Of a DNA stretch of 64,000 nt, positions 17,484-49,656 are shown piece by piece; the stretch's first letter is position 1; each line of letters starts with the position of its first letter. Below the pieces are notes generated by a model that saw nothing but the letters and a program-made list of their open reading frames with translations, was not told the origin of the DNA and did no database searches. This stretch comes from a virus: the IMG/VR virus record IMGVR_UViG_3300021960_000053, positions 1-64,000 of that record; one strand, written 5' to 3'. The translations under genes and the position numbers were made by a program.

Positions 17484-17554
17484 GGGAAATACTGGATTCG
17501 AACCAGTGACTTATTGCTTGTAAGGCAACCACTCTACCGCTGAGTTAATCTCCC
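17483..17554 (-). tRNA. tRNA-Val (anticodon TAC)
   Basis: Cloverleaf with acceptor stem GGGAGAT / ATTTCCC, D-arm CTCAGCGGTAGAG, anticodon loop CTTACAA (TAC) and T-arm GGTTCGAATCC. No CCA encoded. It begins directly after the CCA of tRNA-Arg, so the two are likely processed from one precursor. Confidence 0.93.
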
Positions 17555-17631
17555 TGGCGACTCAGGAGGGACTTGAACCCCCGACCAACTGCTTAGAAGG
17601 CAGATGCTCTATCCAACTGAGCTACTGAGTC
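17555..17631 (-). tRNA. tRNA-Arg (anticodon TCT)
   Basis: Acceptor stem GACTCAG / CTGAGTC, D-arm AGCTCAGTTGGATAGAGC, anticodon loop CTTCTAA (TCT), T-arm GGGGGTTCAAGTCCC, discriminator G and an encoded CCA. Its first two bases overlap the TGA of the oxygenase gene upstream. It reads the AGA codon, which is rarer in many cyanobacterial hosts. Confidence 0.94.
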
Positions 17632-18229
17632 ACGAAAACATAAAAGTGTAATTAACTCTTCGATTTCCAGAACCATGTTTCATTGAAACTTTATTGGTTT
17701 CATGGAAGTATTTAGAGTTAAATATAAGAAGACGATTACACGCATAAGGAATAATCGTCTTCTTAGAGTTAGTGTACTCTAGATATTTCCTAATCAACTT
17801 GACATCCGTATTATACTCGCGCCAGGTCCATGTCGGAGGCGGTTTAATATCATAAAGAATTAAACCGTTTTTCTCTGGATCTTCTACAGAAGAATCTGGA
17901 GTGACCCAGAGATTCACATTATAGCATGCTGGATCAGCATGCGGGGTAACGCCGTTGGCGTTGTTGTCGTAAACGAATGCCCAACCTCTGTCAAAACGAC
18001 CGAGGAATGGGAACCTCGTTTCCAACCCTGTAATTATAGCAGATAGAAGGGGATGCCGCAAGCGGTCTGGAGAGAAGTTAAGTGAGTAATAGTCTTCGTA
18101 GATATCATCTGGATCATCTGCATTGAGAGCATACTCACGCAAGTCATCAATAACATCTGGCAGAAACAAATTATCTACCACATGATACCTTTCCTCTTCA
18201 ATTATTTTCTTTACGGTATTTGAATGCAT
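17630..18229 (-). CDS. 2-oxoglutarate/Fe(II) oxygenase-like protein 1
   Basis: 199 residues with a double-stranded beta-helix core. The iron-binding HxD is in VTPHADPACYNVNLWVTP and a distal His in FNSKYFHETNK, followed by a basic residue (NRRVNYTFMF) for 2-oxoglutarate. This resembles small prolyl-hydroxylase-like enzymes common in cyanophages. Substrate unknown. Its stop codon overlaps tRNA-Arg, so translation and tRNA maturation compete on this transcript. Confidence 0.75.
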   Translation of the reverse strand: MHSNTVKKIIEEERYHVVDNLFLPDVIDDLREYALNADDPDDIYEDYYSLNFSPDRLRHPLLSAIITGLETRFPFLGRFDRGWAFVYDNNANGVTPHADPACYNVNLWVTPDSSVEDPEKNGLILYDIKPPPTWTWREYNTDVKLIRKYLEYTNSKKTIIPYACNRLLIFNSKYFHETNKVSMKHGSGNRRVNYTFMFS

Positions 18230-18728
18230 ATGTAAAACGATGTTCAGAAACTAAAGGAGTTGCTCTATGCAATACCCAAGAAGTAAATTTAACAAGAGTA
18301 TTTGGAATTGGAGGAATAGCAATGATCTTTTGATCTAGATAGAATTCTGTAGTTCCCCCATCATTTAGTCCATTATACATTTTATTTGCATAAAAAAGAA
18401 TTGTAATTTGATCTTCATCATCTTCACAATCTTGATGAAAGTTTGCTATTTCTCTAGGAGCAAAACAATTAATATATGCTCTGTATAATTCGTAACTTTC
18501 AAGTTCTGGAAACTTATCAAGAACGATACCATTTAGAATGTCAACAATTTCTGTATCTTGTTCACAATCTGGATCCAACTCAGAAACTAATCCAGTTGGT
18601 TTAAATTTTTCCTCGTCCGTCTCTCCATAAGTATAAGAAGCATTGTAAGCAAAATTGGATACTTCTCTAAAATCTTCAGGAGATAAAGCTTTATCCACTG
18701 CAAGAATGCTTGGTCTTTGTTTTGTCAT
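18198..18728 (-). CDS. 2-oxoglutarate/Fe(II) oxygenase-like protein 2
   Basis: 176 residues. Iron ligands HxD in IANFHQDCEDDEDQITILFY and distal His in FTSWVLHRATPLVSEHRFTY, with the following Arg as probable 2-oxoglutarate ligand. The segment GGTTEFYLDQK is the jelly-roll strand-turn found in prolyl-4-hydroxylase relatives. It lies between tRNA-Gly and the next oxygenase, overlapping the latter by 32 bases. Substrate unknown. Confidence 0.82.
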   Translation of the reverse strand: MTKQRPSILAVDKALSPEDFREVSNFAYNASYTYGETDEEKFKPTGLVSELDPDCEQDTEIVDILNGIVLDKFPELESYELYRAYINCFAPREIANFHQDCEDDEDQITILFYANKMYNGLNDGGTTEFYLDQKIIAIPPIPNTLVKFTSWVLHRATPLVSEHRFTYAFKYRKENN

Positions 18729-18736
18729 ATTAAATA

Positions 18737-18808
18737 AGCGGGGTATCGGAATCGAACCGACGACATCTAACTTGGAAGGATAGCGTTCTACCGCTGAACT
18801 AACCCCGC
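18737..18808 (-). tRNA. tRNA-Gly (anticodon TCC)
   Basis: Acceptor stem GCGGGGT / ACCCCGC, D-arm GTTCAGCGGTAGAAC, anticodon loop CTTCCAA (TCC) and T-arm GTCGGTTCGATTCCGAT. No CCA encoded. A TATAATGTATC element lies ten bases upstream. Confidence 0.94.
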
Positions 18809-18817
18809 GATAGATAC

Positions 18818-18823
18818 ATTATA
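18818..18823 (-). promoter_or_regulatory. Extended -10 promoter for tRNA-Gly
   Basis: Minus strand TGCTATAATGTATC just upstream of tRNA-Gly and overlapping the end of the upstream oxygenase. The TATAATGTAT string recurs at 53347 and 59335, both in intergenic gaps. Confidence 0.5.
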
Positions 18824-19385
18824 GCACATCTTCTAACTTTCTGACGCGCCAGACCACAGTATATCTATACACATAAGGATGGCGTGGTCCTAGACCCCTG
18901 TGAGGAATTTCAGACGGGAAGATAAGAACTCTACCAGGAACATATTCATGTTCCTCTATAACTTCATTGTCTTCATTTACAATTTGAAATTGACCACCCC
19001 ATTCTTTAGAGTCCCATTTAGTATTCACCATATACATGATGGTGTAATCTCCAGGATCTCCATCAACATGGGATGTACCATCACAAAAAGAGTGTTGTAG
19101 GTTGAAATCGATTCTATTTAAAAGAAGAGGAAAGTCAACCTGCTCCTCAATATGAGCGAACATATTAAAGAAACACTCACACTTGGGAGTCCAGTTAACT
19201 ATATGATTGATCGAACTTCTTTCAAAAAGATTTTCACCAAATAATTTATGAGTGCCATGTTGCCCTGCAGGATAACCAGTACCGTTTGCCTCATTGATAG
19301 CAGTTACAGGAAGATGGAGCATAGTCTTCTCAACCTGCACCATATAGTCATAATCAAAAAGGTTATCTAAAATTTGAGCAATCAT
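18819..19385 (-). CDS. Prolyl-4-hydroxylase-like 2OG/Fe(II) oxygenase 3
   Basis: 188 residues. HxD is in SHVDGDPGDYTIMYMVN and the distal His in IFPSEIPHRGLGPRHPY, with RYTVVWRV as closing strand and 2OG-binding Arg. EWGGQFQIV matches the GG.F strand of the P4H-type jelly roll. All catalytic ligands are present, so it is probably active. The target could be a peptidyl proline or another small substrate; nothing in sequence decides. Confidence 0.87.
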   Translation of the reverse strand: MIAQILDNLFDYDYMVQVEKTMLHLPVTAINEANGTGYPAGQHGTHKLFGENLFERSSINHIVNWTPKCECFFNMFAHIEEQVDFPLLLNRIDFNLQHSFCDGTSHVDGDPGDYTIMYMVNTKWDSKEWGGQFQIVNEDNEVIEEHEYVPGRVLIFPSEIPHRGLGPRHPYVYRYTVVWRVRKLEDVL

Positions 19386-19714
19386 TAATCACGCTGTCTC
19401 CAGTCATCAGGTTTATCTCTTTGGAACCAATCTACAATTTCATCTGCAGATTTAAACCCCGTACTATGGTTGGATGGGTCGGGGTCTCCTAGTCCCATCC
19501 TATTCATAAAATCATCCATACTTCCTTCTTGAATATCTCCCGCTGCTTGGCGTCGTGCTTTGTTTAACCAGTCTCTTGCAGTTGTATATGACTTGGCAAG
19601 TTTCTCTGCCCAAATCATATCCTCAAGATTCACCTCTTCTTTGTTTGATATCTTCTTACAGATACCTTCAAGACGAAGACGATACTGTGTTGACAGCATA
19701 CCAGATATGTCCAA
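19385..19714 (-). CDS. Conserved hypothetical protein, 109 residues
   Basis: Helical N-terminal two thirds (EGICKKISNKEEVNLEDMIW, AEKLAKSYTTARDWLNKARR) and a short charged tail ending KPDDWRQRD. A second ATG at 19699 (MLSTQYRLRL) is an alternative start. No domain recognised. It sits between two oxygenases and shares one base with the downstream gene. Confidence 0.7.
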   Translation of the reverse strand: MDISGMLSTQYRLRLEGICKKISNKEEVNLEDMIWAEKLAKSYTTARDWLNKARRQAAGDIQEGSMDDFMNRMGLGDPDPSNHSTGFKSADEIVDWFQRDKPDDWRQRD

Positions 19715-19732
19715 TCTTTCTAGTATTTAGGA

Positions 19733-20377
19733 CTATATCTGTATCCATTTGGACGGAGAGGTAACAACATTTTCATACTGGTCGTCTACATTTTCTGTAG
19801 ATGTTACAAAAATATCGTACACAATAGATGCTCTAAACTGTTCACCATAAAAATCTGTGACTCCATGGAGCATAGAAGAAGGAAAGATGATTAAGTCTCC
19901 TACTTGAGGATCGATTTTATAATATGAGTATTCATCTCTCAAAGTTACAGGCATAGAATCTAAAACTCCAAGATTACTGAATGCTAGTTCTCCGCCTTCT
20001 CCTTCTGTTCTAAGATAATAAACAGCACTAAAGTGTGACCCTCTATGAGTGTGGTGAGAAGTTTTTCCCTCCTGAGAATTACAGACTGTAGTCCATGCCT
20101 TTTGAACAAAGATATTATATTCTAAATCAGAGATTTGACTTAGATAGTCTTTCATTGATTGTGAGATTACATAGTTCAACCAGTAAAACTCTTTATTGTG
20201 CTGAAGAAGAAAGAACTTTGGTATATCTTGATCTCCAGTTAGTCCACCGTAACCTTCAATATCTTTCTGGTTTTTGTAGTAAAACTCCTCAGCATATCTC
20301 ATCATACCTTCCATAATATTAGAAGGACAATCAAAATGAGTATGATAAATTGGAATTGAAAATAAGTTTTTGATCAT
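19733..20377 (-). CDS. 2OG/Fe(II) oxygenase 4 (TIGR02466-like)
   Basis: 214 residues resembling the phage/marine-bacterial family of putative 2OG-Fe(II) oxygenases. The block TSHHTHRGSHFSAVYYL provides histidine ligands. IIFPSSMLHGVTDFYGEQFR provides the distal His and an Arg. The N-terminus (FSIPIYHTHFD) is the usual short strand of this family. It starts three bases after tRNA-Ser, so it shares the tRNA promoter region. Confidence 0.84.
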   Translation of the reverse strand: MIKNLFSIPIYHTHFDCPSNIMEGMMRYAEEFYYKNQKDIEGYGGLTGDQDIPKFFLLQHNKEFYWLNYVISQSMKDYLSQISDLEYNIFVQKAWTTVCNSQEGKTSHHTHRGSHFSAVYYLRTEGEGGELAFSNLGVLDSMPVTLRDEYSYYKIDPQVGDLIIFPSSMLHGVTDFYGEQFRASIVYDIFVTSTENVDDQYENVVTSPSKWIQI

Positions 20378-20379
20378 AA

Positions 20380-20466
20380 CGGAGAGTTAGGGATTTGAAC
20401 CCTAGATGAAGTTACCCCCATACAGCATTTCCAGTGCTGCTCCTTAAACCACTCGGACAACTCTCC
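20380..20466 (-). tRNA. tRNA-Ser (anticodon GGA)
   Basis: 87-base class II tRNA with a long variable arm, acceptor GGAGAGT / ACTCTCC, anticodon loop CTGGAAA (GGA) and T-arm TAGGGTTCAAATCCCTA. No CCA encoded. It is part of a three-tRNA run. Confidence 0.94.
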
Positions 20467-20468
20467 AA

Positions 20469-20540
20469 CTCCCCTGGCAAGATTCGAACTTGCGACCCAT
20501 TGATTAACAGTCAACTGCGCTACCGCTGCGCCACAGAGGA
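20469..20540 (-). tRNA. tRNA-Asn (anticodon GTT)
   Basis: Acceptor TCCTCTG / CAGGGGA, D-arm GCGCAGCGGTAGCGC, anticodon loop CTGTTAA (GTT) and T-arm GCAAGTTCGAATCTTGC. Two bases separate it from tRNA-Ser, implying a shared precursor. Confidence 0.94.
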
Positions 20541-20547
20541 ATGAAGG

Positions 20548-20619
20548 AGCCACATGTCAGATTCGAACTGACGACCTACCGCTTACAAGGCGGTTGCTCT
20601 ACCACTGAGCTAAAATGGC
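20548..20619 (-). tRNA. tRNA-Thr (anticodon TGT)
   Basis: Acceptor GCCATTT / ATGTGGC (one mismatch), D-arm GCTCAGTGGTAGAGC, anticodon loop CTTGTAA (TGT) and T-arm GTCAGTTCGAATCTGAC. First of the Thr-Asn-Ser run downstream of a TTGACA-TACAAT promoter. Confidence 0.93.
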
Positions 20620-21832: not shown

Positions 21833-23803
21833 TTACTTAGAAAGTCTTCTTAAATCGTAACCACCAAGTCTTCTGGTGTCATATCCAGGAGAAGAAACGG
21901 AAGAATTTGGTCGATTAGAATTTGTAGGTTTGTTGGTTGCAGGATCGGGTTTATTAGTAGGTCTTGATTGAGTACCAGAATTAGTAGGTTTTGATTGAGT
22001 ACCAGAATTAGTAGGTCTTGATTTAGTACCAGTTGGATTGGGACCATGTGAAAATTCAGGACCGCGAGCACCAGATCTATTTTCAGCAGCTCTTCTTCTA
22101 TCTCTGTAATCTTGAACTGGATCTTCACCCAGGAGCTCCTCTACGATGCTTTCGATCTGTTCAGCAGTCAGTTGCTCCATGATCGCCTCAGCGTGCTCTA
22201 CGCTGTCCATGAGACCGTTCTCATCAAGGTATGTTAGGATGATGTCATAGAGATTAAAATCATCCTTCATCCAACGGGGAACAGTGTCATCCTTTTTGGA
22301 TGCCATTTCTTTGCGAGCCTTTTCGTTGTTCTCATGACGCTTCTTCATATTTGTTTCCAAATACGAATCATCATCATCCTTTTCTTTTTTGTACTCGGGA
22401 TGATCGTCTACGCTATGCCCACGCTTCTTCTCAAGGCGTTCCTTTCTCTCTTCAGTTCCCTTCTCGGGATCTTTGTCGCGGATACCCTCCAATTGGAGTT
22501 CTTCACCTTGAAGCGCCTTCTTGCGTTGATGTAGTCTATCTACTAATGTACCACCATTACCCTGTCCAGATTCCGCTGCTTTCTTCTGCTTTGTCAGGTT
22601 CCTCACCAAACCAAGACCAGCGGCACCGATACCCAGTGCAGCACCAGCAGCAAGTGCAGGAGCGATCTCATCGATCTGTTCACCCTCTGCTTCGTAGTGT
22701 GCTTTAAGATCTCCAGGAGCTTTGATCTCTTTGGGTTTGCCAGTCTTGGGGTCGGTAATCATTTTGATTCTAGACTTGCCAGTGGCAGGATCTTCCCAAG
22801 GATTCAGAGTTCCTTTTACGGGAGGGAATCCTTCTACCAGTTCACCATCAACTTCATAAGAATTCTTAAGGGTACTACCAGGCATTCCATCCATCTGGGG
22901 ATTCCTACCCTTGTAAGTCATCTTAGACTTAGGAGGATTGGCACTCATCAGAGGATTAGGTGTCATGCCAGATCTTCTGCCATAGTTAGCACCAAAGTTT
23001 GCCTTGAACTTAGTTTGTCCAAGAGTCTCTGCTTCTCTGGTAGCAGCAGATGCTGCTTTAGTGTCTCCTGCATTTGCTGCAGACTTTGCCTTTGCCTGTA
23101 GTGCCTTGTAGTCAGCGTTAGGGTCGGGTTTAGGTGCAACAGGTTTAGCAGCAACAGGTTGTTTAACAGGTTGTTTAACAGGTTGTTTAACAGGAGCAAA
23201 TGGATCTTCTCTTGGTTTATCCGCCTTTGGAATAGTTACCTTAGTAGGTTCTACTTTAGCAGCAGGTCTTGGTGGTGTATAAGGTTCAGCAACTCTGGGG
23301 AGTGGTCCCACACCAGTTTTTTGTGCTTGTTTATCCAAGAAAGGTTTCAGGTTAATTTCTTTAGCCTTTTTAGGGTTGTTGTTTAACCAGCTACTAAGAT
23401 CAACAAATTCTGCGATTGCTCTGGCTTGCTTCTTCTCAGCGGTGTGAAGGTCCTCATAGATGCGAGGGTTAACTGCCTGCAGGGCAGCACGGAACTCGTG
23501 CCCTACAACCTCTTTGGGGAGTGCTTCGATGATGTTATCCAGGAGTCTGCTGCTCTCGTATCCTTCGCCAATCAGAACTTCAGCAATGGCACGATACTGT
23601 TCAGCATAGACAGGGTTCATTGCCTGCAGTCTCTTCAGGTAGAAGGACTCGCATGTGCATTTGTCTACTTTCTTTTTATCGACTTTCTTCCCTTCGGGAT
23701 TGTCGTCTTTTCTATTCCAGTCCTTAACTTCTTCCTCGGACTTCTTGCCTTCGGCAATCCGAGAATAAGCTTCAGCGAGGTTGTTGATATGAGAGGGAAG
23801 CAT
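21833..23803 (-). CDS. Large low-complexity virion-type protein
   Basis: 656 residues, hydrophilic and modular. Order: helical N-terminal part (YAEQYRAIAEVLIGEG, CTCESFYLKRLQ), Pro/Lys linker with three VKQP repeats, Ala/Lys-rich middle, a short hydrophobic patch after DEIAPA (LAAGAALGIGAAGLGL), a strongly charged stretch, the conserved helix pair DFNLYDIILTYLDENGLMD, and a Thr/Ser/Pro repeat tail (GTQSRPTNS). The LYDIIL...Y helix pair is common in cyanophage structural and scaffold proteins. The frame opens at 23842, but a late promoter overlaps those codons, so I take the ATG at 23803. A virion role is inferred from the late promoter and composition. Confidence 0.72.
   Translation of the reverse strand: MLPSHINNLAEAYSRIAEGKKSEEEVKDWNRKDDNPEGKKVDKKKVDKCTCESFYLKRLQAMNPVYAEQYRAIAEVLIGEGYESSRLLDNIIEALPKEVVGHEFRAALQAVNPRIYEDLHTAEKKQARAIAEFVDLSSWLNNNPKKAKEINLKPFLDKQAQKTGVGPLPRVAEPYTPPRPAAKVEPTKVTIPKADKPREDPFAPVKQPVKQPVKQPVAAKPVAPKPDPNADYKALQAKAKSAANAGDTKAASAATREAETLGQTKFKANFGANYGRRSGMTPNPLMSANPPKSKMTYKGRNPQMDGMPGSTLKNSYEVDGELVEGFPPVKGTLNPWEDPATGKSRIKMITDPKTGKPKEIKAPGDLKAHYEAEGEQIDEIAPALAAGAALGIGAAGLGLVRNLTKQKKAAESGQGNGGTLVDRLHQRKKALQGEELQLEGIRDKDPEKGTEERKERLEKKRGHSVDDHPEYKKEKDDDDSYLETNMKKRHENNEKARKEMASKKDDTVPRWMKDDFNLYDIILTYLDENGLMDSVEHAEAIMEQLTAEQIESIVEELLGEDPVQDYRDRRRAAENRSGARGPEFSHGPNPTGTKSRPTNSGTQSKPTNSGTQSRPTNKPDPATNKPTNSNRPNSSVSSPGYDTRRLGGYDLRRLSK
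21953..22033 (-). repeat. Tandem 27-base repeat encoding GTQSRPTNS-like units
   Basis: Three near-identical 27-base units encode GTKSRPTNS, GTQSKPTNS and GTQSRPTN- in the C-terminal tail of the large virion-type protein. Units differ by few bases, as expected for recent slippage expansion. Confidence 0.8.
23157..23192 (-). repeat. Three 12-base direct repeats (VKQP)
   Basis: GGTTGTTTAACA repeats three times without variation on the plus strand and encodes VKQP units in the linker of the large virion-type protein. Identity of the copies suggests a recent, variable-number expansion. Confidence 0.85.
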
Positions 23804-44383: not shown

Positions 44384-45214
44384 TTATTTATCTAAACTTT
44401 TCTTGACTTCGTTAAGAGCTTCCTGAAGAATTCTCCTTGGTTCTTCATATGTCATTTTGATCAACCATTTTTTATCCCAAAATTCGTCTAGTTTACAACT
44501 CTTACCAGTAAAATCCTCATAGATTCCTAAGAAAAGACTAAACAATCCCCATTGACTTGACGGAAAATATGCGGGGGAAAGGCAAACAAAGATGGCATCA
44601 TATTCATAGTTTCCATGATCATATTGCTCTTTAAAACAGGTTTCCCATTTACAAGGATTACCAACATAATCACAGATAAACTTATTGAAAGGAGTACGAG
44701 TATCTTCATCTGCCTTAGAATCATTATTTCTGATCCAAGTCATACTATCCAACTTGTTCTGGGAATGCAAATATCCTCCCCAGCTCCCCTCATCAACTTT
44801 ACCAAAAGCTTTTGTCATCTCATATTCTAAAATATGACCAGCCATATGTTGCTGTTCATCTCCAGCACAGTCTTCATCAACATAACACCCTGCTAAGAAA
44901 TCATCGTGGTGATCAATATTGACAATCTCAATATGATCTTTGTCATGTAGATATTCCAGAATATAATCATGATCCATTCCAAACCAAACATGAGCATTTG
45001 GACTGGCGACAAGTGCTTTAGTAAATGTATCTAAAAGATATTCTAAGCATTCTTCATCGATTATTTTTTCCCTGGTGTTTAGAGAAGGATACCTCAGAAA
45101 ATAATAATACCATTTTGTAAATGGATGCCACTCAGAAAACATTTCATTGTCTTCATTTGGCCATTCATCTACAGTGGGAAAAGCATAATCAATATCAATG
45201 CTTAAGACTTTCAT
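44384..45214 (-). CDS. Arginase-fold-like (UPF0489-like) protein
   Basis: 276 residues. The N-terminal strand MKVLSIDIDYAFPT and the block EIVNIDHHDDFLAG (about residue 98) give a DxHxD metal-binding pattern like that of the arginase/deacetylase fold. VWFGMDHDYILEYL precedes it, and VCLSPAYFPSSQWGLF sits where the C-terminal metal acids or the UPF0489 signature would be. The assignment to a ureohydrolase-like fold is inference. Location between gp62 and regA is not part of the T4 order, so it is an accessory insertion. Confidence 0.55.
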   Translation of the reverse strand: MKVLSIDIDYAFPTVDEWPNEDNEMFSEWHPFTKWYYYFLRYPSLNTREKIIDEECLEYLLDTFTKALVASPNAHVWFGMDHDYILEYLHDKDHIEIVNIDHHDDFLAGCYVDEDCAGDEQQHMAGHILEYEMTKAFGKVDEGSWGGYLHSQNKLDSMTWIRNNDSKADEDTRTPFNKFICDYVGNPCKWETCFKEQYDHGNYEYDAIFVCLSPAYFPSSQWGLFSLFLGIYEDFTGKSCKLDEFWDKKWLIKMTYEEPRRILQEALNEVKKSLDK

Positions 45215-45591
45215 TTTTTAATACCACCTGTATCCATTTTCTTATGGATGAATTTGATTTGCTCTGGCGAGAGAATCTTAAGTGCTTGTTGTGCCTTTTC
45301 GTTACTGTACCCGTAGTATTTTTTTACTACTTCGAGGTCAGCAATCTTCTCTTGCTTCAACCAGGGAGAGAATCTCTTCTTCTTTCTCAGACTATGTAGC
45401 ATGAAATGGTACTGCATGTCTTTGTTAAGATGAGTATTCTTATTCATCTCATTGGCAAACAAGATGGCATCGATGTGTCCAGACATACAACGATTCACGA
45501 TGTAAGCAGGATACTTTTTGCATGCCTCAGGATCTTCACTAAGGTCCTGCTTGTTTGTGTTAATAGAGTTCAACCAGTCTTTCAGTTCCAT
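45211..45591 (-). CDS. gp62: Clamp loader small subunit gp62
   Basis: 126 residues. Starts MELKDWLNSINTNKQDLSED; ATG 45591 lies just after the Dam stop and is preferred to a longer frame running into Dam. Helical pattern with YIVNRCMSGHIDAILFANEM and MLHSLRKKKRFSPW is typical of gp62, which with gp44 loads the gp45 clamp. It normally follows gp44 directly; here about 2.6 kb of nuclease and methylase genes intervenes. Confidence 0.9.
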   Translation of the reverse strand: MELKDWLNSINTNKQDLSEDPEACKKYPAYIVNRCMSGHIDAILFANEMNKNTHLNKDMQYHFMLHSLRKKKRFSPWLKQEKIADLEVVKKYYGYSNEKAQQALKILSPEQIKFIHKKMDTGGIKK

Positions 45592-45592
45592 A

Positions 45593-46444
45593 TCAATAAT
45601 TAACCAAAACGAGTTCTTTACGATCTTGTTGTTCCCGCATATACTGACCAACCGAACGCATGGTATAGGTCAGATCAAACTCAGATGCTTTCCAGTTAGT
45701 GAACCGATCTTTAACGAGTTGACTTGAGTTGTAACTTACAAGACTATCTATCTTACAAGCAGAGCAGTCAGCAGCAAACTTATCGTGATCAAATCCTTTG
45801 TGCATTGATCCTTTACGACCATAAAGATTGTCTTTGATGTCGTAAGGCGGATCAAGATAGATAAAGATCTTTTGATCTACAAGACCGAAGCACTTGTCTG
45901 GAGATTCATCCAGAAGATAATCGTAAGAGTAGTTTGTGATATTCCAGTTCTTGATTAGTTCTGAGTAGAAGGGCAGTTTGTCAATTCCCCTGAAGGAGAA
46001 GTTTGAGTCACTTGCTTGGGCAGAGAATGAACTGGATTCAGTAAGACCTGAGAAAGAGCATTTATTAACAACATAGAAGGAAACAGCACGCTGGAAATTT
46101 TCACTGTCTTCCAGAGGTCTAGCAAGATATGCTTTGGCGTCAAGGAATAAGTTTTTAGCACTTGCAGGATCAACATGGCGTTGTTTAAGTTGATTTAGTT
46201 CATCTCTCATCTCACGACCAAACATCTGGAGTTGCTGCCAGAAGTTGACCAGAGGTTCATAAAGGTCATTGACCCATACCCTGCTGTCAGGGTAACGCTT
46301 AGTCCATTCGATAGCGAAGGAACCGCCACCTAGGAAAGGTTCCCTCAGTTCATCATACTCCTTGTCGGGGATATAAGAGAAAAGTTTTTGTACGGCACGA
46401 GACTTGCCGCCAGGATAACGAAGGGGGGTTTTCAAAGATTTCAT
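45593..46444 (-). CDS. dam: DNA adenine methyltransferase (Dam family)
   Basis: 283-residue D12-class N6-adenine methyltransferase. Motif X is TPLRYPGGKSRAVQKL, the SAM-binding motif I is REPFLGGGSFAIEW, and catalytic motif IV is FIYLDPPYDIKD (DPPY). The family usually recognises GATC. Its ATG overlaps the stop of a PD-(D/E)XK-like gene (ATGA), a restriction-modification-like pairing. It could protect phage DNA from GATC-cutting host nucleases or from the neighbouring nuclease. Confidence 0.92.
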   Translation of the reverse strand: MKSLKTPLRYPGGKSRAVQKLFSYIPDKEYDELREPFLGGGSFAIEWTKRYPDSRVWVNDLYEPLVNFWQQLQMFGREMRDELNQLKQRHVDPASAKNLFLDAKAYLARPLEDSENFQRAVSFYVVNKCSFSGLTESSSFSAQASDSNFSFRGIDKLPFYSELIKNWNITNYSYDYLLDESPDKCFGLVDQKIFIYLDPPYDIKDNLYGRKGSMHKGFDHDKFAADCSACKIDSLVSYNSSQLVKDRFTNWKASEFDLTYTMRSVGQYMREQQDRKELVLVNY

Positions 46445-47076
46445 TCAAAAAATTCCATTACGGTTTGCTTCTGTGGGAAGAAGAAGTCTGGATATGCTTC
46501 GATCAGTTTAACATCATACATGCAAGAAATCAACATGTCTCTGATCTGAAAATCAGGTTTTTTTCTAACTTTGAACGAACGATCCAGAACAGGACTCTTA
46601 CTCTGAATAAACCACCCATTTTCATCAATAGGAATAAGATTGGCAGGGATCTTCCAAATCATTTCTCTCAGCGGTGTGACTAAAACATGATAGAAGACAT
46701 CAATACTATCTGGTCCATAAAAACATTTAGATGGATCAGATTTAGATCCAGAAGACTGAAACCTAAAGTCAAAAGTATCTCTTCTAACTTCGATACCGCG
46801 ACGGACTCTTAGACCAGTATCGATTTTAGCTTTCCAAGCAACCTTCTTAACCTGAGCTCTTTCAATCTTTCTCGGATCGTCACCTTGAACCCACCAATCA
46901 GTTCCTTGATCGACGAGAGGTTTTCCGAAATTAATTTTGTTTTTTAAAAAATACTTTGCAACGATATGCTCCGCTGCTTCTCCGATAAAAACGGTATCCG
47001 AATTCTTTCTATCAAATTCAGTATCAAACTCCTCGGGAAGCAGAGGGGGCATAAACGCAGGGACAATAATAGACAT
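46441..47076 (-). CDS. PD-(D/E)XK endonuclease-like protein coupled to Dam
   Basis: 211 residues. FIGEAAEHIVAKYFLKNKI supplies the N-terminal Glu, and LVDQGTDWWVQGDDPRKIER then AQVKKVAWK gives a D-x(n)-QVK nuclease core. EMIWKIPANLIPI resembles the strand after the core in intron-type PD-(D/E)XK homing enzymes such as I-Ssp6803I. Transcribed from its own late promoter and translationally coupled to Dam. Either a homing nuclease or a restriction enzyme matched to Dam; sequence alone does not decide. Confidence 0.6.
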   Translation of the reverse strand: MSIIVPAFMPPLLPEEFDTEFDRKNSDTVFIGEAAEHIVAKYFLKNKINFGKPLVDQGTDWWVQGDDPRKIERAQVKKVAWKAKIDTGLRVRRGIEVRRDTFDFRFQSSGSKSDPSKCFYGPDSIDVFYHVLVTPLREMIWKIPANLIPIDENGWFIQSKSPVLDRSFKVRKKPDFQIRDMLISCMYDVKLIEAYPDFFFPQKQTVMEFFE

Positions 47077-47094
47077 AACTTAAAATATAAAAGA

Positions 47095-47130
47095 AATAAC
47101 AGAACACACATTGCTGAGTGTTCTGTTATT
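47095..47130. repeat. 13-base-pair inverted repeat following a late promoter
   Basis: Arms AATAACAGAACAC and GTGTTCTGTTATT, with a ten-base loop, begin within the TATAAATA element on the minus strand. The late transcript would begin with this hairpin. Confidence 0.7.
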
Positions 47131-47134
47131 TATA
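47127..47134 (-). promoter_or_regulatory. T4-type late promoter for the nuclease-Dam pair
   Basis: TATAAATA on the minus strand, directly after the T-run of a terminator and 51 bases before the ATG at 47076. Confidence 0.8.
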
Positions 47135-47135
47135 C

Positions 47136-47159
47136 AAAAAAACCACCAAAGTTGGTGGT
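47136..47159 (-). terminator. Terminator after the invaded gp44 region
   Basis: ACCACC / GGTGGT stem with loop AACTTT followed by seven T residues on the minus strand. It isolates gp44 and its inserted nuclease genes from the downstream nuclease-Dam pair. Confidence 0.9.
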
Positions 47160-47177
47160 GTTAGTATTTGTTAACAA

Positions 47178-47201
47178 TTACTTAAACTTGCACTCAACCA
47201 T
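47178..47201 (-). repeat. Duplicated gp44 3' end (third copy)
   Basis: This 24-base stretch reads MVECKFK-stop on the minus strand and matches 20 of 24 bases at the true end of gp44 (48200-48223). It overlaps the stop of the PD-(D/E)XK gene in another frame and belongs to no gene here. Confidence 0.8.
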
Positions 47202-47823
47202 AAACAACTTTGAATTTTTCATAATCTTTTTTTAGTTCCGATACTCTTATTCCAGTTTTGTCAGGTAAATGTTCTACAGGAATCATCCAAACTGTGTCAT
47301 CTATAACACTAATGAATGCCATATAATCAACGATCTCCCTATACGGTATCCTATCAGTATGATTGGTCATGAGATGAAACTGTGCTTTTGCTGAGGAATA
47401 CTGTGCAGTTGATTTTACCTGAACTCTTTCAAAATTTTTTCCATCTTTTGATATGATAAAATCAGATCCCCAAATATCTTCAACTGGTTTATAAACTTGA
47501 TAACCCTTCACCATCATCAAATTTTTAAACTTATCTTCACAAATTCTTCCAAGACCTTTTCTTAGAGTGGCAATTTTTACATCCTCAGGATTAAACAAAC
47601 TGTTTTTAAGAACTTGATTTGTGCCAATTATTTCTTGATACTTTTTCTTTGCCTCAATAATTGCTTCATCTTTATTTCTAGTTTTAAGCGACCAATGTCC
47701 CCCTCTCCGCCACCCTGATTTTTTTAGAATACGAAGATACCAAGTTGGTTGACCATATCTTTGAAAGATACTTGCATCGGGGTCATTATTGAATGACTCT
47801 ACATTTTGGAAAACCTCGCTCAT
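47194..47823 (-). CDS. PD-(D/E)XK endonuclease of the intron-homing type
   Basis: 209 residues. The core reads GRICEDKFKNLMMVKGYQVY (N-terminal Glu), DIWGSDFIISKDGKNFERVQ and VKSTAQYSS: a D-x(n)-QVK nuclease site followed by VDYMAFISVIDDTVWMIPVE. This is the arrangement of the PDDEXK_5 group that includes the group I intron enzyme I-Ssp6803I. No intron is present, so it would be free-standing. Its ATG overlaps the HNH gene stop, and a copy of the gp44 C-terminal codons lies at its end. Confidence 0.72.
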   Translation of the reverse strand: MSEVFQNVESFNNDPDASIFQRYGQPTWYLRILKKSGWRRGGHWSLKTRNKDEAIIEAKKKYQEIIGTNQVLKNSLFNPEDVKIATLRKGLGRICEDKFKNLMMVKGYQVYKPVEDIWGSDFIISKDGKNFERVQVKSTAQYSSAKAQFHLMTNHTDRIPYREIVDYMAFISVIDDTVWMIPVEHLPDKTGIRVSELKKDYEKFKVVYG

Positions 47824-47840
47824 TTAAAATTACATTCCAT
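47820..47840 (-). repeat. Duplicated gp44 3' end (second copy)
   Basis: The last codons of the HNH gene read MECNFK-stop, matching the VECKFK-stop end of gp44. The AAATGA that ends it also contains the ATG of the next gene, exactly as at the gp44/HNH junction. Confidence 0.7.
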
Positions 47841-48203
47841 AAGATATTTTTCTGCCATTTTAATTCCAGCAAGAGTATCACCAAGATTACCAATGGCAGA
47901 ATTACACTGATAACATAACCAACCTCTAAATTTATTGGTTTGATGATCGTGGTCAAAAACTAACATTTCAGTTGTTTTTCCACAACATCTGCATGGAGTA
48001 CCAAGAGGAGGTCTTTCCATATTCAACTCTTGCATGAGTTTTTTTGCCTGAGATGAATGTGCTTTCCCCCCTACTCTACGACAAACTTTACACTCGCTGC
48101 GGTATCTTTTAGGATAAAGTTTGCCATTTACTATTCTTTCAGAATGACATAGATGAAATTCACTCAAAGGTTTAGTTTTGCCACATATGCGACACTCTTT
48201 CAT
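47820..48203 (-). CDS. HNH endonuclease (endonuclease VII-like)
   Basis: 127 residues. N-terminal zinc pair (CRICGKTKP, then CKVCRRVGG), a second pair (CRCCGKTTEM, LCYQCNSAI) and the catalytic core LVFDHDHQTNKFRGW (the His of DHDH then Asn). GNLGDTLAGIKMAEKYL is the conserved C-terminal helix of the recombination endonuclease VII family. In phages this fold serves both Holliday-junction resolution (gp49) and free-standing homing. The ATG at 48203 overlaps the gp44 stop. Position inside gp44-gp62 favours homing. Confidence 0.85.
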   Translation of the reverse strand: MKECRICGKTKPLSEFHLCHSERIVNGKLYPKRYRSECKVCRRVGGKAHSSQAKKLMQELNMERPPLGTPCRCCGKTTEMLVFDHDHQTNKFRGWLCYQCNSAIGNLGDTLAGIKMAEKYLMECNFK

Positions 48204-49144
48204 TTGAACTTGCACTCCACCATAATTTCAGTCAACGCCGCGAGGAGGTTGATCTCCTGGTCGGCAACAAATGCGATCTGATACTGATACTTAGCAATGA
48301 TGAGGACAGCAGCAGCAATGCTAGGACCCTCCAAGGTGCTATAAAGAGCATCGTAAACACGACGCAGTAATACGCTAGGATCATTATCCAGATTATTAAC
48401 GACCCATTTGCGAACTGACTGAAAGTCCTTCTGCTTGAGTTTCTGGAGGAGATCATTTACCTTAACATCCCCAAACTCTGCAAGGATTGCCGAATCAATT
48501 TTACCACCCACCGAGTACCTTTGGCACTCGTTGAGGACACGACGCCAGTCAGGGAAGTGCTTGTTGATGAGTTCGACAAGAACTTTTTCGTCATAGGCAA
48601 TACCTTCTCCAGAAAGAATTTGTCCAAGACGCCTAAAGAAGTCTGCTGCGATTGCAGGTTTCTGCCTTGCAGTAATAGAAAATTCGACGACGGCACACCG
48701 AGAATGAAGGGGTTCGATGATTTTGTTTTTGTAGTTACAGGTGAAGATGAACCTACAGTTGCCATAAAACGCCTCAATATTAGCCCGTAGGAGGAGCTGT
48801 ACATCGTGGGTTGTGTTATCAGCCTCGTCGATAATGATGACCTTGTGCGGTGCATCTGAAGAAAGTGAGACGGTCGAAGCAAAGTTCTTTGCTTGATTCC
48901 GTACAGTATCGAGAAATCTACCTTCGTCGGATCCATTGATAATAATATAGTCGCAGTTTAGTTGCTCGCAAATAGCGCGAGCGATAGTTGTCTTGCCACA
49001 ACCAGCAGGACCTGCAAGAAGCAGGTTAGGAATCTCTCCTTGTGCTAGGAAATCCTGAAAGGTTTTCTTTGTAGCAGCAGGAAGGATACACTCATCAATA
49101 GTTTTGGGACGATACTTTTCGACCCAGAGAAAATCACTACGCAT
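48200..49144 (-). CDS. gp44: Clamp loader large subunit gp44
   Basis: 314-residue AAA+ ATPase that opens and loads the gp45 sliding clamp. Walker A LLAGPAGCGKTTIARAI (about residue 46), Walker B VIIIDEADNTTH, and the SRC arginine-finger motif in LHSRCAVVEF. Starts MRSDFLWVEKYRPKTIDECI; this shorter ATG avoids overlap with the upstream gene. Its last codons (VECKFK-stop) are the sequence repeated at the ends of the inserted nuclease genes downstream. Confidence 0.95.
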   Translation of the reverse strand: MRSDFLWVEKYRPKTIDECILPAATKKTFQDFLAQGEIPNLLLAGPAGCGKTTIARAICEQLNCDYIIINGSDEGRFLDTVRNQAKNFASTVSLSSDAPHKVIIIDEADNTTHDVQLLLRANIEAFYGNCRFIFTCNYKNKIIEPLHSRCAVVEFSITARQKPAIAADFFRRLGQILSGEGIAYDEKVLVELINKHFPDWRRVLNECQRYSVGGKIDSAILAEFGDVKVNDLLQKLKQKDFQSVRKWVVNNLDNDPSVLLRRVYDALYSTLEGPSIAAAVLIIAKYQYQIAFVADQEINLLAALTEIMVECKFK

Positions 49145-49146
49145 AA

Positions 49147-49656
49147 TCAAATCCAGTCAGGTTTACGATGGGGCAACCTAATATAATTATCGCACACCCA
49201 TGGTTTAGATGCAATGTACATCTTGTACGCATCAAAAGTTGTAATGCTTGTATCCAGTTTATATTCGTCAGGCATAGCTCTGGCAAAGGGAGTAACCTTA
49301 TCCAGTTTACCTTTGGGGAAAAGGTAGTATGCTTGCACTAAAGTATTCTCACAAGCATGAGTTTTGTTATACCTCAAGGTATATTCGTCACACAGATTTA
49401 GTCCCCACTTGATTAACCAATAGGCGTTATCCACGGTGTCTGCCGCCCACTTCGTACAAGGGTGGTTGCGAAAGGCACCTTTCTCTGTCGCATAGGGCGT
49501 CCCGTCTCTTTTTCCCAGAGTTCCGTAAGAGTGATACCAAGGAGAAGCAACAATAGATAGCATTTGGCAACACTCCAAGGGCATCTTGACAACATGTTTG
49601 TCAGGAAGACAGATGGCACTTTCAGCAGGAAACGGATGTGTGACAAAGATATTCAT
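49147..49656 (-). CDS. Conserved phage protein, 169 residues
   Basis: Starts MNIFVTHPFPAESAICLPDK and continues HVVKMPLECCQMLSIV. Cys, His and Trp are frequent (RNHPCTKWAADTVDNAYWLI). The start block with DKHVVKMxLExxQML recurs in uncharacterised marine phage proteins. No known catalytic motif. Its ATG overlaps the SpeD stop by four bases. Confidence 0.72.
   Translation of the reverse strand: MNIFVTHPFPAESAICLPDKHVVKMPLECCQMLSIVASPWYHSYGTLGKRDGTPYATEKGAFRNHPCTKWAADTVDNAYWLIKWGLNLCDEYTLRYNKTHACENTLVQAYYLFPKGKLDKVTPFARAMPDEYKLDTSITTFDAYKMYIASKPWVCDNYIRLPHRKPDWI

Follow-up and report, generated by a model that had tools for sequence, protein, structure and literature searches.

Two nuclease genes lie between gp44 and gp62, which encode the two clamp-loader subunits, in a virus from IMG/VR (record IMGVR_UViG_3300021960_000053, positions 1 to 64,000; this whole stretch of 64,000 nucleotides is referred to as the window), and each of them ends within a sequence resembling the 3′ end of gp44. 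How did these genes come to lie there, and why is the end of gp44 repeated? The reading that we favor is that both are likely to be free-standing homing-type nuclease cassettes inserted at the gp44 stop codon; the cutting, the route of repair and the advantage given by the repeated tail are inferred. On the minus strand the order was found to be gp44, an EndoVII-type HNH gene, a PDDEXK_5 gene, a tail copy, a terminator, p211, dam and gp62, with the following features:

48200..49144, minus strand: gp44, sliding-clamp-loader large subunit, host gene of the insertion (Pfam AAA and Gp44_lid)
48200..48225, minus strand: 3′ end of gp44, the first tail copy, TTATGGTGGAGTGCAAGTTCAAATGA
47820..48203, minus strand: cassette 1, Endonuclease VII-type HNH nuclease of 127 aa (PF02945, E=1.6e-12)
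47820..47843, minus strand: second gp44-tail copy (17/24 identical), forming the in-frame end of cassette 1
47194..47823, minus strand: cassette 2, PDDEXK_5 nuclease of 209 aa (PF11645, 31.5 bits against a cut-off of 26.1)
47178..47203, minus strand: third gp44-tail copy, out of frame with the nuclease, 20/24 identical
47077..47177, minus strand: terminator, TATAAATA late-promoter-like motif and inverted repeat, from the last tail to the next gene
46441..47076, minus strand: p211, PD-(D/E)XK-like protein, flank and not cassette (weak phrog_5018 match)
45593..46444, minus strand: dam, adenine methyltransferase, flank (PF02086)
45211..45591, minus strand: gp62, small clamp-loader subunit, flank (PF16790)

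The gp44 gene of the window showed 77% DNA identity to annotated cyanophage clamp loaders and was shown to be intact, with an ORF complete to its own stop; its last 24 nt are ATGGTGGAGTGCAAGTTCAAATGA (48223-48200). The ATG within the AAATGA of gp44 (48203) is the start codon of the HNH gene, giving an ATGA overlap with the gp44 stop, and the 3′ end of the HNH gene, CTTATGGAATGTAATTTTAAATGA (47843-47820), encodes the C-terminus MECNFK-stop. The start of the PDDEXK_5 gene (47823) overlaps the HNH stop through ATGA in the same way as the HNH gene does on gp44, and the PDDEXK_5 stop (47196-47194) falls inside the third tail copy, ATGGTTGAGTGCAAGTTTAAGTAA (47201-47178), in a different frame. This copy ends in TAA, like the native gp44 of L287, a relative without cassettes. 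A preliminary description made from the sequence alone had claimed that gp44 ends in VECKFK-stop, that the HNH gene ends in MECNFK-stop, that a third copy (MVECKFK, 20/24) lies out of frame, and that both inserted genes start at the ATG in the preceding AAATGA; all of these claims held. No Rfam match to a group I intron was found over window positions 45000-49400. Other features observed in the window were a pyrimidine dimer DNA glycosylase gene (PF03013) directly upstream of gp44 (49147-49656), three tandem 27-nt direct repeats with 93-100% identity (21953-22033), and four similar 55-nt stretches on the minus strand that resemble parts of tRNA genes (17494-20613).

The tail similarities might have arisen by chance or by shared protein constraint, a rival explanation that can be all but excluded. 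When both strands of the 64-kb window were scanned with the gp44 tail, 24 matches were obtained at gp44 itself, 20 at 47201-47178, 17 at 47843-47820, and 16 or fewer at all remaining positions. With a profile built from 99 gp44 tails, the two tail copies of the window scored 12.5 and 25.8 bits, and the maximum among about 642,000 control positions was 5.9 bits. The tail copies of nucleases located at gp44 scored 12.5-41 bits among the loci included in the profile scan, with the exception of the copy at a 132-aa PD-(D/E)XK gene (PD132) in L082 (9.2 bits). Chance similarity was ruled out by whole-window, reverse-strand and upstream controls, and in a larger survey not one of 1.93 million control positions matched a locus's own tail at 20/24 or more. 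The rival is also contradicted by pairs of empty and filled alleles, in which the extra copy is directly visible (see below). In its favor, the native C-terminus of a small-protein family (phrog_1201; L029, L160) is itself tail-like, and weak matches may therefore mislead; the second match in L029 and the phrog_1201 end in L160 were excluded as probable native features of this family.

Retention of the tail for the peptide that it encodes was ruled out, since the cassettes read the tail in different frames; it is therefore the DNA and not the peptide that is kept. A second rival is that the tail is kept for translation, each insertion having to provide the gene that follows with the same signal for re-initiation, and that the recombination history is secondary. 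Support for this comes from a GGAG in the end of gp44, 11 nt before the overlapping ATG, from the ATGA start in 162/197 loci together with the use of the tail in different frames, and from the translational coupling of the T4 clamp-loader genes, which has been suggested for mobE too (PMC2988022). However, a ribosome-binding site cannot account for 19 identical letters (GGAGTGTGAATTCAAATGA), local variants (MCEC in L027) and the recipient's TAA kept in L011 remain unexplained, and L147, L272, L275, and L292 contain no tail. We regard this explanation as unlikely.

The preliminary description had proposed a search for cassette-free, one-cassette and two-cassette alleles. All three were found, with one, two, and three tails, respectively. 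Searches of isolate phages (tblastn and blastn) showed that most cyanophages have other genes behind gp44, that S-8S53 has the window-type HNH gene alone there, and that DSL-LC03 has a PDDEXK_5 gene there; many further gp44 loci were taken from IMG/VR contigs. All close PDDEXK_5 homologues (≥65% protein identity) found behind gp44 were accompanied by a second gp44 tail in the same position. In DSL-LC03 a second, unrelated HNH gene was observed behind the PDDEXK_5 cassette, directly before gp62 (L002:5581-6189).

Five pairs of empty and filled alleles (L082/L084, L011/L285, S-8S53/S-PRM1, L116/L039, and window/L287) showed clean junctions, with insertion at the gp44 stop without loss of sequence. 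The near-isogenic L082 and L084 showed 96.1% identity over a block of 4,945 nt whose end coincides with the gp44 stop and, beyond a 405-bp insert in L082, 98.7% identity over 1,084 nt. For L011/L285 the corresponding values were 96.6% over 1,131 nt, a 341-bp insert, and 94.8% over 3,515 nt, while the flanks of S-8S53/S-PRM1 showed 91.4 and 93.7% identity and those of L116/L039 84.2 and 93.0%. In these four single-cassette pairs, the empty allele showed an overlap of 16-23 nt between the matching blocks, corresponding to the tail repeat. The window and L287 showed 87% identity on either side; L287 has a single gp44 tail ending in GTTGAGTGTAATTTCAAATAA, immediately followed by p211. No empty allele with the exact downstream sequence of the window, AARTAATTGTTAACAAATAC, was found, and L287 was the best empty relative. 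A cassette is shown to be a nuclease ORF whose 3′ end copies approximately 19-26 nt of the 3′ end of gp44. It is placed exactly after the last sense codon or the stop of gp44, so that the full gp44 sequence is kept and the next gene is again preceded by a gp44 tail, with its own start and stop.

The closest pairs also indicate where the extra tail comes from. In L082, the end of gp44, which contains an unusual GCG codon, was identical to that of the empty allele L084, and the downstream copy had the form seen in other cassettes of the same nuclease, which shows that the cassette brings the tail with it in the closest pairs. On the same grounds a target-site duplication at insertion is not favored. 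In L011, the cassette follows the final sense codon of gp44 (AAA) and precedes its native TAA; gp44 receives a TGA from the cassette, and the old gp44 TAA now terminates the nuclease gene. Elsewhere the final bases of the tail are those of the recipient, with TAA for L011 and the window, AAG for L028 and L183, and the MCEC type for L027, a pattern that crossovers within the tail would be expected to produce. The earlier claim that each insertion regenerates the host 3′ end therefore held only in part, since in the closest pairs the tail arrives with the cassette. Insert-free alleles with extra tail copies, named in advance as a refutation, were not borne out, as cassette-free alleles have one tail. 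The central claim of free-standing homing genes at the gp44 stop is supported by the allelic series, by mobility and by protein fold, with cutting being inferred.

In L287, p211 is the first gene after gp44, and only a few bases are present in place of the segment that separates the last tail from p211 in the window, where the TATAAATA motif lies at 47134-47127, after an intrinsic terminator (window 47160-47077, minus strand). Transcription of p211, dam, and gp62 may possibly have been re-wired after the insertions. The p211 gene overlaps dam through ATGA, and relatives of p211 were observed between gp44 and dam in L011, L032, L038, L040, L285, and L287; p211 and dam could conceivably form a nuclease/methylase pair. 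The end of p211 was also compared for a degraded tail (p=0.07), and none is claimed.

Pairwise comparisons showed that cassettes move between phages independently of gp44. The HNH genes of the window and S-8S53, which occupy the same site, showed 97.6% DNA identity, compared to 76.2% for their gp44 genes. Similarly, L011 and L012 showed 98.8% DNA identity in the cassette and 72.5% in gp44, and L082 and L116 showed 99.0% in PD132 and 76.4% in gp44. One and the same cassette was found to precede many different downstream genes, with the tail always forming the joint. Cassettes have also stacked one behind another and spread among distant phages. The PD132 cassette of L118 is flanked on both sides by identical 26-nt tails, TTTATGTGGAGTGTGAATTCAAATGA; in this locus (L118:3482-4409) an antisense HNH gene and the PD132 cassette were observed to be stacked, with a further tail-like stretch just upstream.

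No excess identity, as expected from co-conversion, was detected in the last 60-200 nt of gp44 among cassette-sharing pairs. This lowers the claim of membership among homing genes; co-conversion is a usual companion of homing in T4 and not a strict requirement, and the tracts may be short or erased. The finding is also one of the points in favor of a third rival, in which the tails are attachment sites and the cassette excises as a circle, tail to tail, and re-enters at another tail without gp44 being cut. Both junctions lie inside the tail, no co-conversion is seen outside it, cassettes are stacked behind tail copies (window, L161), and the L118 cassette lies between identical tails. On the other hand, the cassettes carry nucleases of homing families or the like and lack a recombinase gene, and 20 bp is short for general recombination. 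Attachment-site excision is considered improbable.

A survey of 207 non-redundant gp44 loci, which is a sample and not all gp44 loci in IMG/VR, showed gp44 to be followed by dozens of unrelated gene families (48 clusters). The next ORF begins in the ATGA of the gp44 stop in 162 of 197 loci. By our reading of the clusters, a nuclease gene was first after gp44 in approximately 43 loci. Of the nuclease groups, EndoVII, HNH_3, and PDDEXK_5 had Pfam support; PD132, PD134, PD174, and other PD-(D/E)XK groups gave no Pfam match where scanned, PD132 having a phrog_5018 link and the remainder being assigned by sequence motifs only. A tail copy was detected in 21/43 nuclease-first loci (EndoVII-type 5, PDDEXK_5 8, HNH_3 3, PD132 3, PD134 1, and PD174 1), and hence at least six nuclease families or subfamilies share the gp44 tail. 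In marine T4-like viruses, mobile nuclease genes from several unrelated families have repeatedly arrived at this one stop codon. Among about 154 loci with another gene first, only one (L106) contained a tail copy (Fisher p ~2e-15). When only loci fetched by gp44 queries were included, the counts were 8/29 nuclease loci and 1 of about 150 others (p 1.5e-6). The counts were tallied by hand, and kinship among the loci makes both p values optimistic. The other 22 of the 43 nuclease genes at the gp44 site, mostly diverged ones, had no tail (e.g., L144, L146, L147, and a 121-aa EndoVII group). The tail is thus common and not obligatory at nucleases of this site.

A fourth rival is that the nucleases are passengers in an interval between gp44 and gp62 that is a general hotspot for illegitimate recombination, the tail being a by-product of joining. 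The 48 clusters of unrelated genes that follow gp44 and the non-nuclease ORF with a tail in L106 speak for it, whereas the concentration of tails behind nucleases in the gp44-anchored loci speaks against it; we find it unlikely. The L106 ORF (L106:1416-1607) is small and membrane-like without a nuclease domain, and a tail-bearing ORF of this type was also observed in second place in L161, about 590-720 nt past the gp44 stop.

Homologues located elsewhere lacked the tail: PDDEXK_5 genes behind purC in L016 and L019 and another in L020, PD132 relatives in S-PRM1, S-MbCM6, and S-BM1, and an HNH gene in L010. In L016 (3306-4627) and L019 (1-813) the PDDEXK_5 nuclease was observed at the ATGA stop of purC, and S-RIM44 has an empty purC site. 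A duplication of the purC tail was not evident at this insertion in L016 and L019. The right end of the purC-inserted gene is GAATTTAAATTAAATGA, which could be a decayed gp44 tail and would then record a jump from gp44 to purC, although this is no more than a possibility.

Both cassettes of the window encode nucleases of families with proven homing members; cleavage by them is inferred. The AlphaFold model of the PDDEXK protein (mean pLDDT 81.5), based on an alignment of sequences from the window and IMG/VR only, had its best PDB match with 2ost, the homing endonuclease I-Ssp6803I (E=6e-5, probability 1.00), with modest TM-scores of 0.40-0.54. A PDB sequence search with the same protein gave nothing significant. 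The HNH protein carries FDHDHQTNKFRGWLCYQCN preceded by CCRCC, which corresponds to the CX2C-DHDH-R-CX2C-N pattern of EndoVII and F-CphI, and the conserved D, H, H, R, and N of the EndoVII motif are all present (compared with the motif in PMC6083498). A fifth rival is that the nucleases serve exclusion or restriction among co-infecting phages and not their own spread. EndoVII-like and PD-(D/E)XK folds are found in restriction enzymes, and a dam gene is nearby. However, the site-specific pattern and the transfer of cassettes need no exclusion, which would be a consequence of homing, and this explanation is considered very unlikely.

In the favored explanation, homing with a portable short homology arm, the nuclease would cut a cassette-free gp44 allele at or near the 3′ end of gp44, and the break would be repaired from a co-infecting cassette-bearing phage. 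The gp44 gene would provide the homology on the left and the carried tail a short homology arm on the right. As the genes behind gp44 vary among phages, the carried tail is the only sequence shared on that side; it may let the cassette enter any recipient and would preserve the original sequence in front of the downstream gene. One-sided homology with microhomology on the opposite side has been observed in T4 homing (Parker et al., cited in PMC2988022). Homing is supported by the pairs with clean junctions, the mobility, the six tail-sharing families, the tail-less off-site homologues, the I-Ssp6803I fold, and the F-CphI residues. Against it stand the absence of co-conversion, the 22/43 tail-less nucleases, the tail-bearing non-nuclease ORF in L106 and L161, the T4 genes without tails (see below), and the lack of cleavage data. 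In addition, gp44 is intact in filled alleles, which leaves no obvious reason for the donor to resist cutting. A bolder reading, which we consider less likely than not, sees in the gp44 tail a portable docking sequence that turns any nuclease gene acquiring it into a minimal mobile cassette. If so, movement would occur by recombination within the approximately 20-bp tail on both sides, unrelated nuclease families would share an interchangeable platform, and stacking would spare gp44 and its downstream partner.

The homing reading suggests how selfish nuclease genes can settle harmlessly beside essential phage genes when the other flank is not shared, and it suggests both a route of gene gain between the two clamp-loader subunit genes and a reason for the variability of this interval. 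The natural allele pairs include sequenced isolates (S-8S53 with a cassette and S-PRM1 without) and are suited to the study of intronless homing in the setting of the ocean's abundant cyanophages.

Several known systems resemble the gp44 cassettes in part. The T4 seg and mob genes are likewise nucleases between conserved replication genes, and mobE starts in an overlap with the nrdA stop (PMC2988022). However, T4 homing genes show co-conversion of flanks from distant cut sites, which the gp44 cassettes do not. None of nine T4 free-standing homing genes tested convincingly copies the tail of its upstream gene (mobC p=0.04, uncorrected for nine), and the tail as a general feature of T4 homing genes was therefore rejected. 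F-CphI, of the DHHRN family (PMC6083498), is like the HNH protein of the window a free-standing cyanophage nuclease with the EndoVII catalytic motif, but it targets psbA and the gp44 HNH proteins are found at a different site; the likeness was compared in the motif only. I-Ssp6803I, a PD-(D/E)XK homing endonuclease and the best fold match of the PDDEXK_5 protein, is encoded by an intron in a cyanobacterial tRNA gene, whereas the PDDEXK_5 gene at the gp44 site is free-standing. The cyanophage endonuclease T4-GC282 is comparable in that it is inserted at the 3′ end of gp17, another conserved gene (PMC3037559); passages of that paper on the gp17 insertion mention no tail copy. No report of such tails in phages was found in the open-access literature searched.

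The preliminary description had held the arrangement to be unlike introns or inteins, which is correct, but a close precedent exists in mobile ORFs with C-terminal duplications in fungal mitochondria, described for atp6 of Allomyces macrogynus and for atp6, atp9, cox2, and nad3 of Glomus (PMC3630166). These were the nearest precedent found. As in the gp44 cassettes, an endonuclease is located at the 3′ end of a conserved gene, and that end is present before and after the insert. In the fungal elements, it is a foreign copy that completes the host gene, and the native end has been displaced downstream (PMC3630166), whereas at gp44, in the closest pairs, the host-joined end is native (identical to the empty allele in L082/L084 and L011/L285) and the carried copy lies downstream. 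Unlike the fungal mobile ORFs, the gp44 cassettes have a repeat of only about 20 nt, belong to several nuclease families, and are found stacked.
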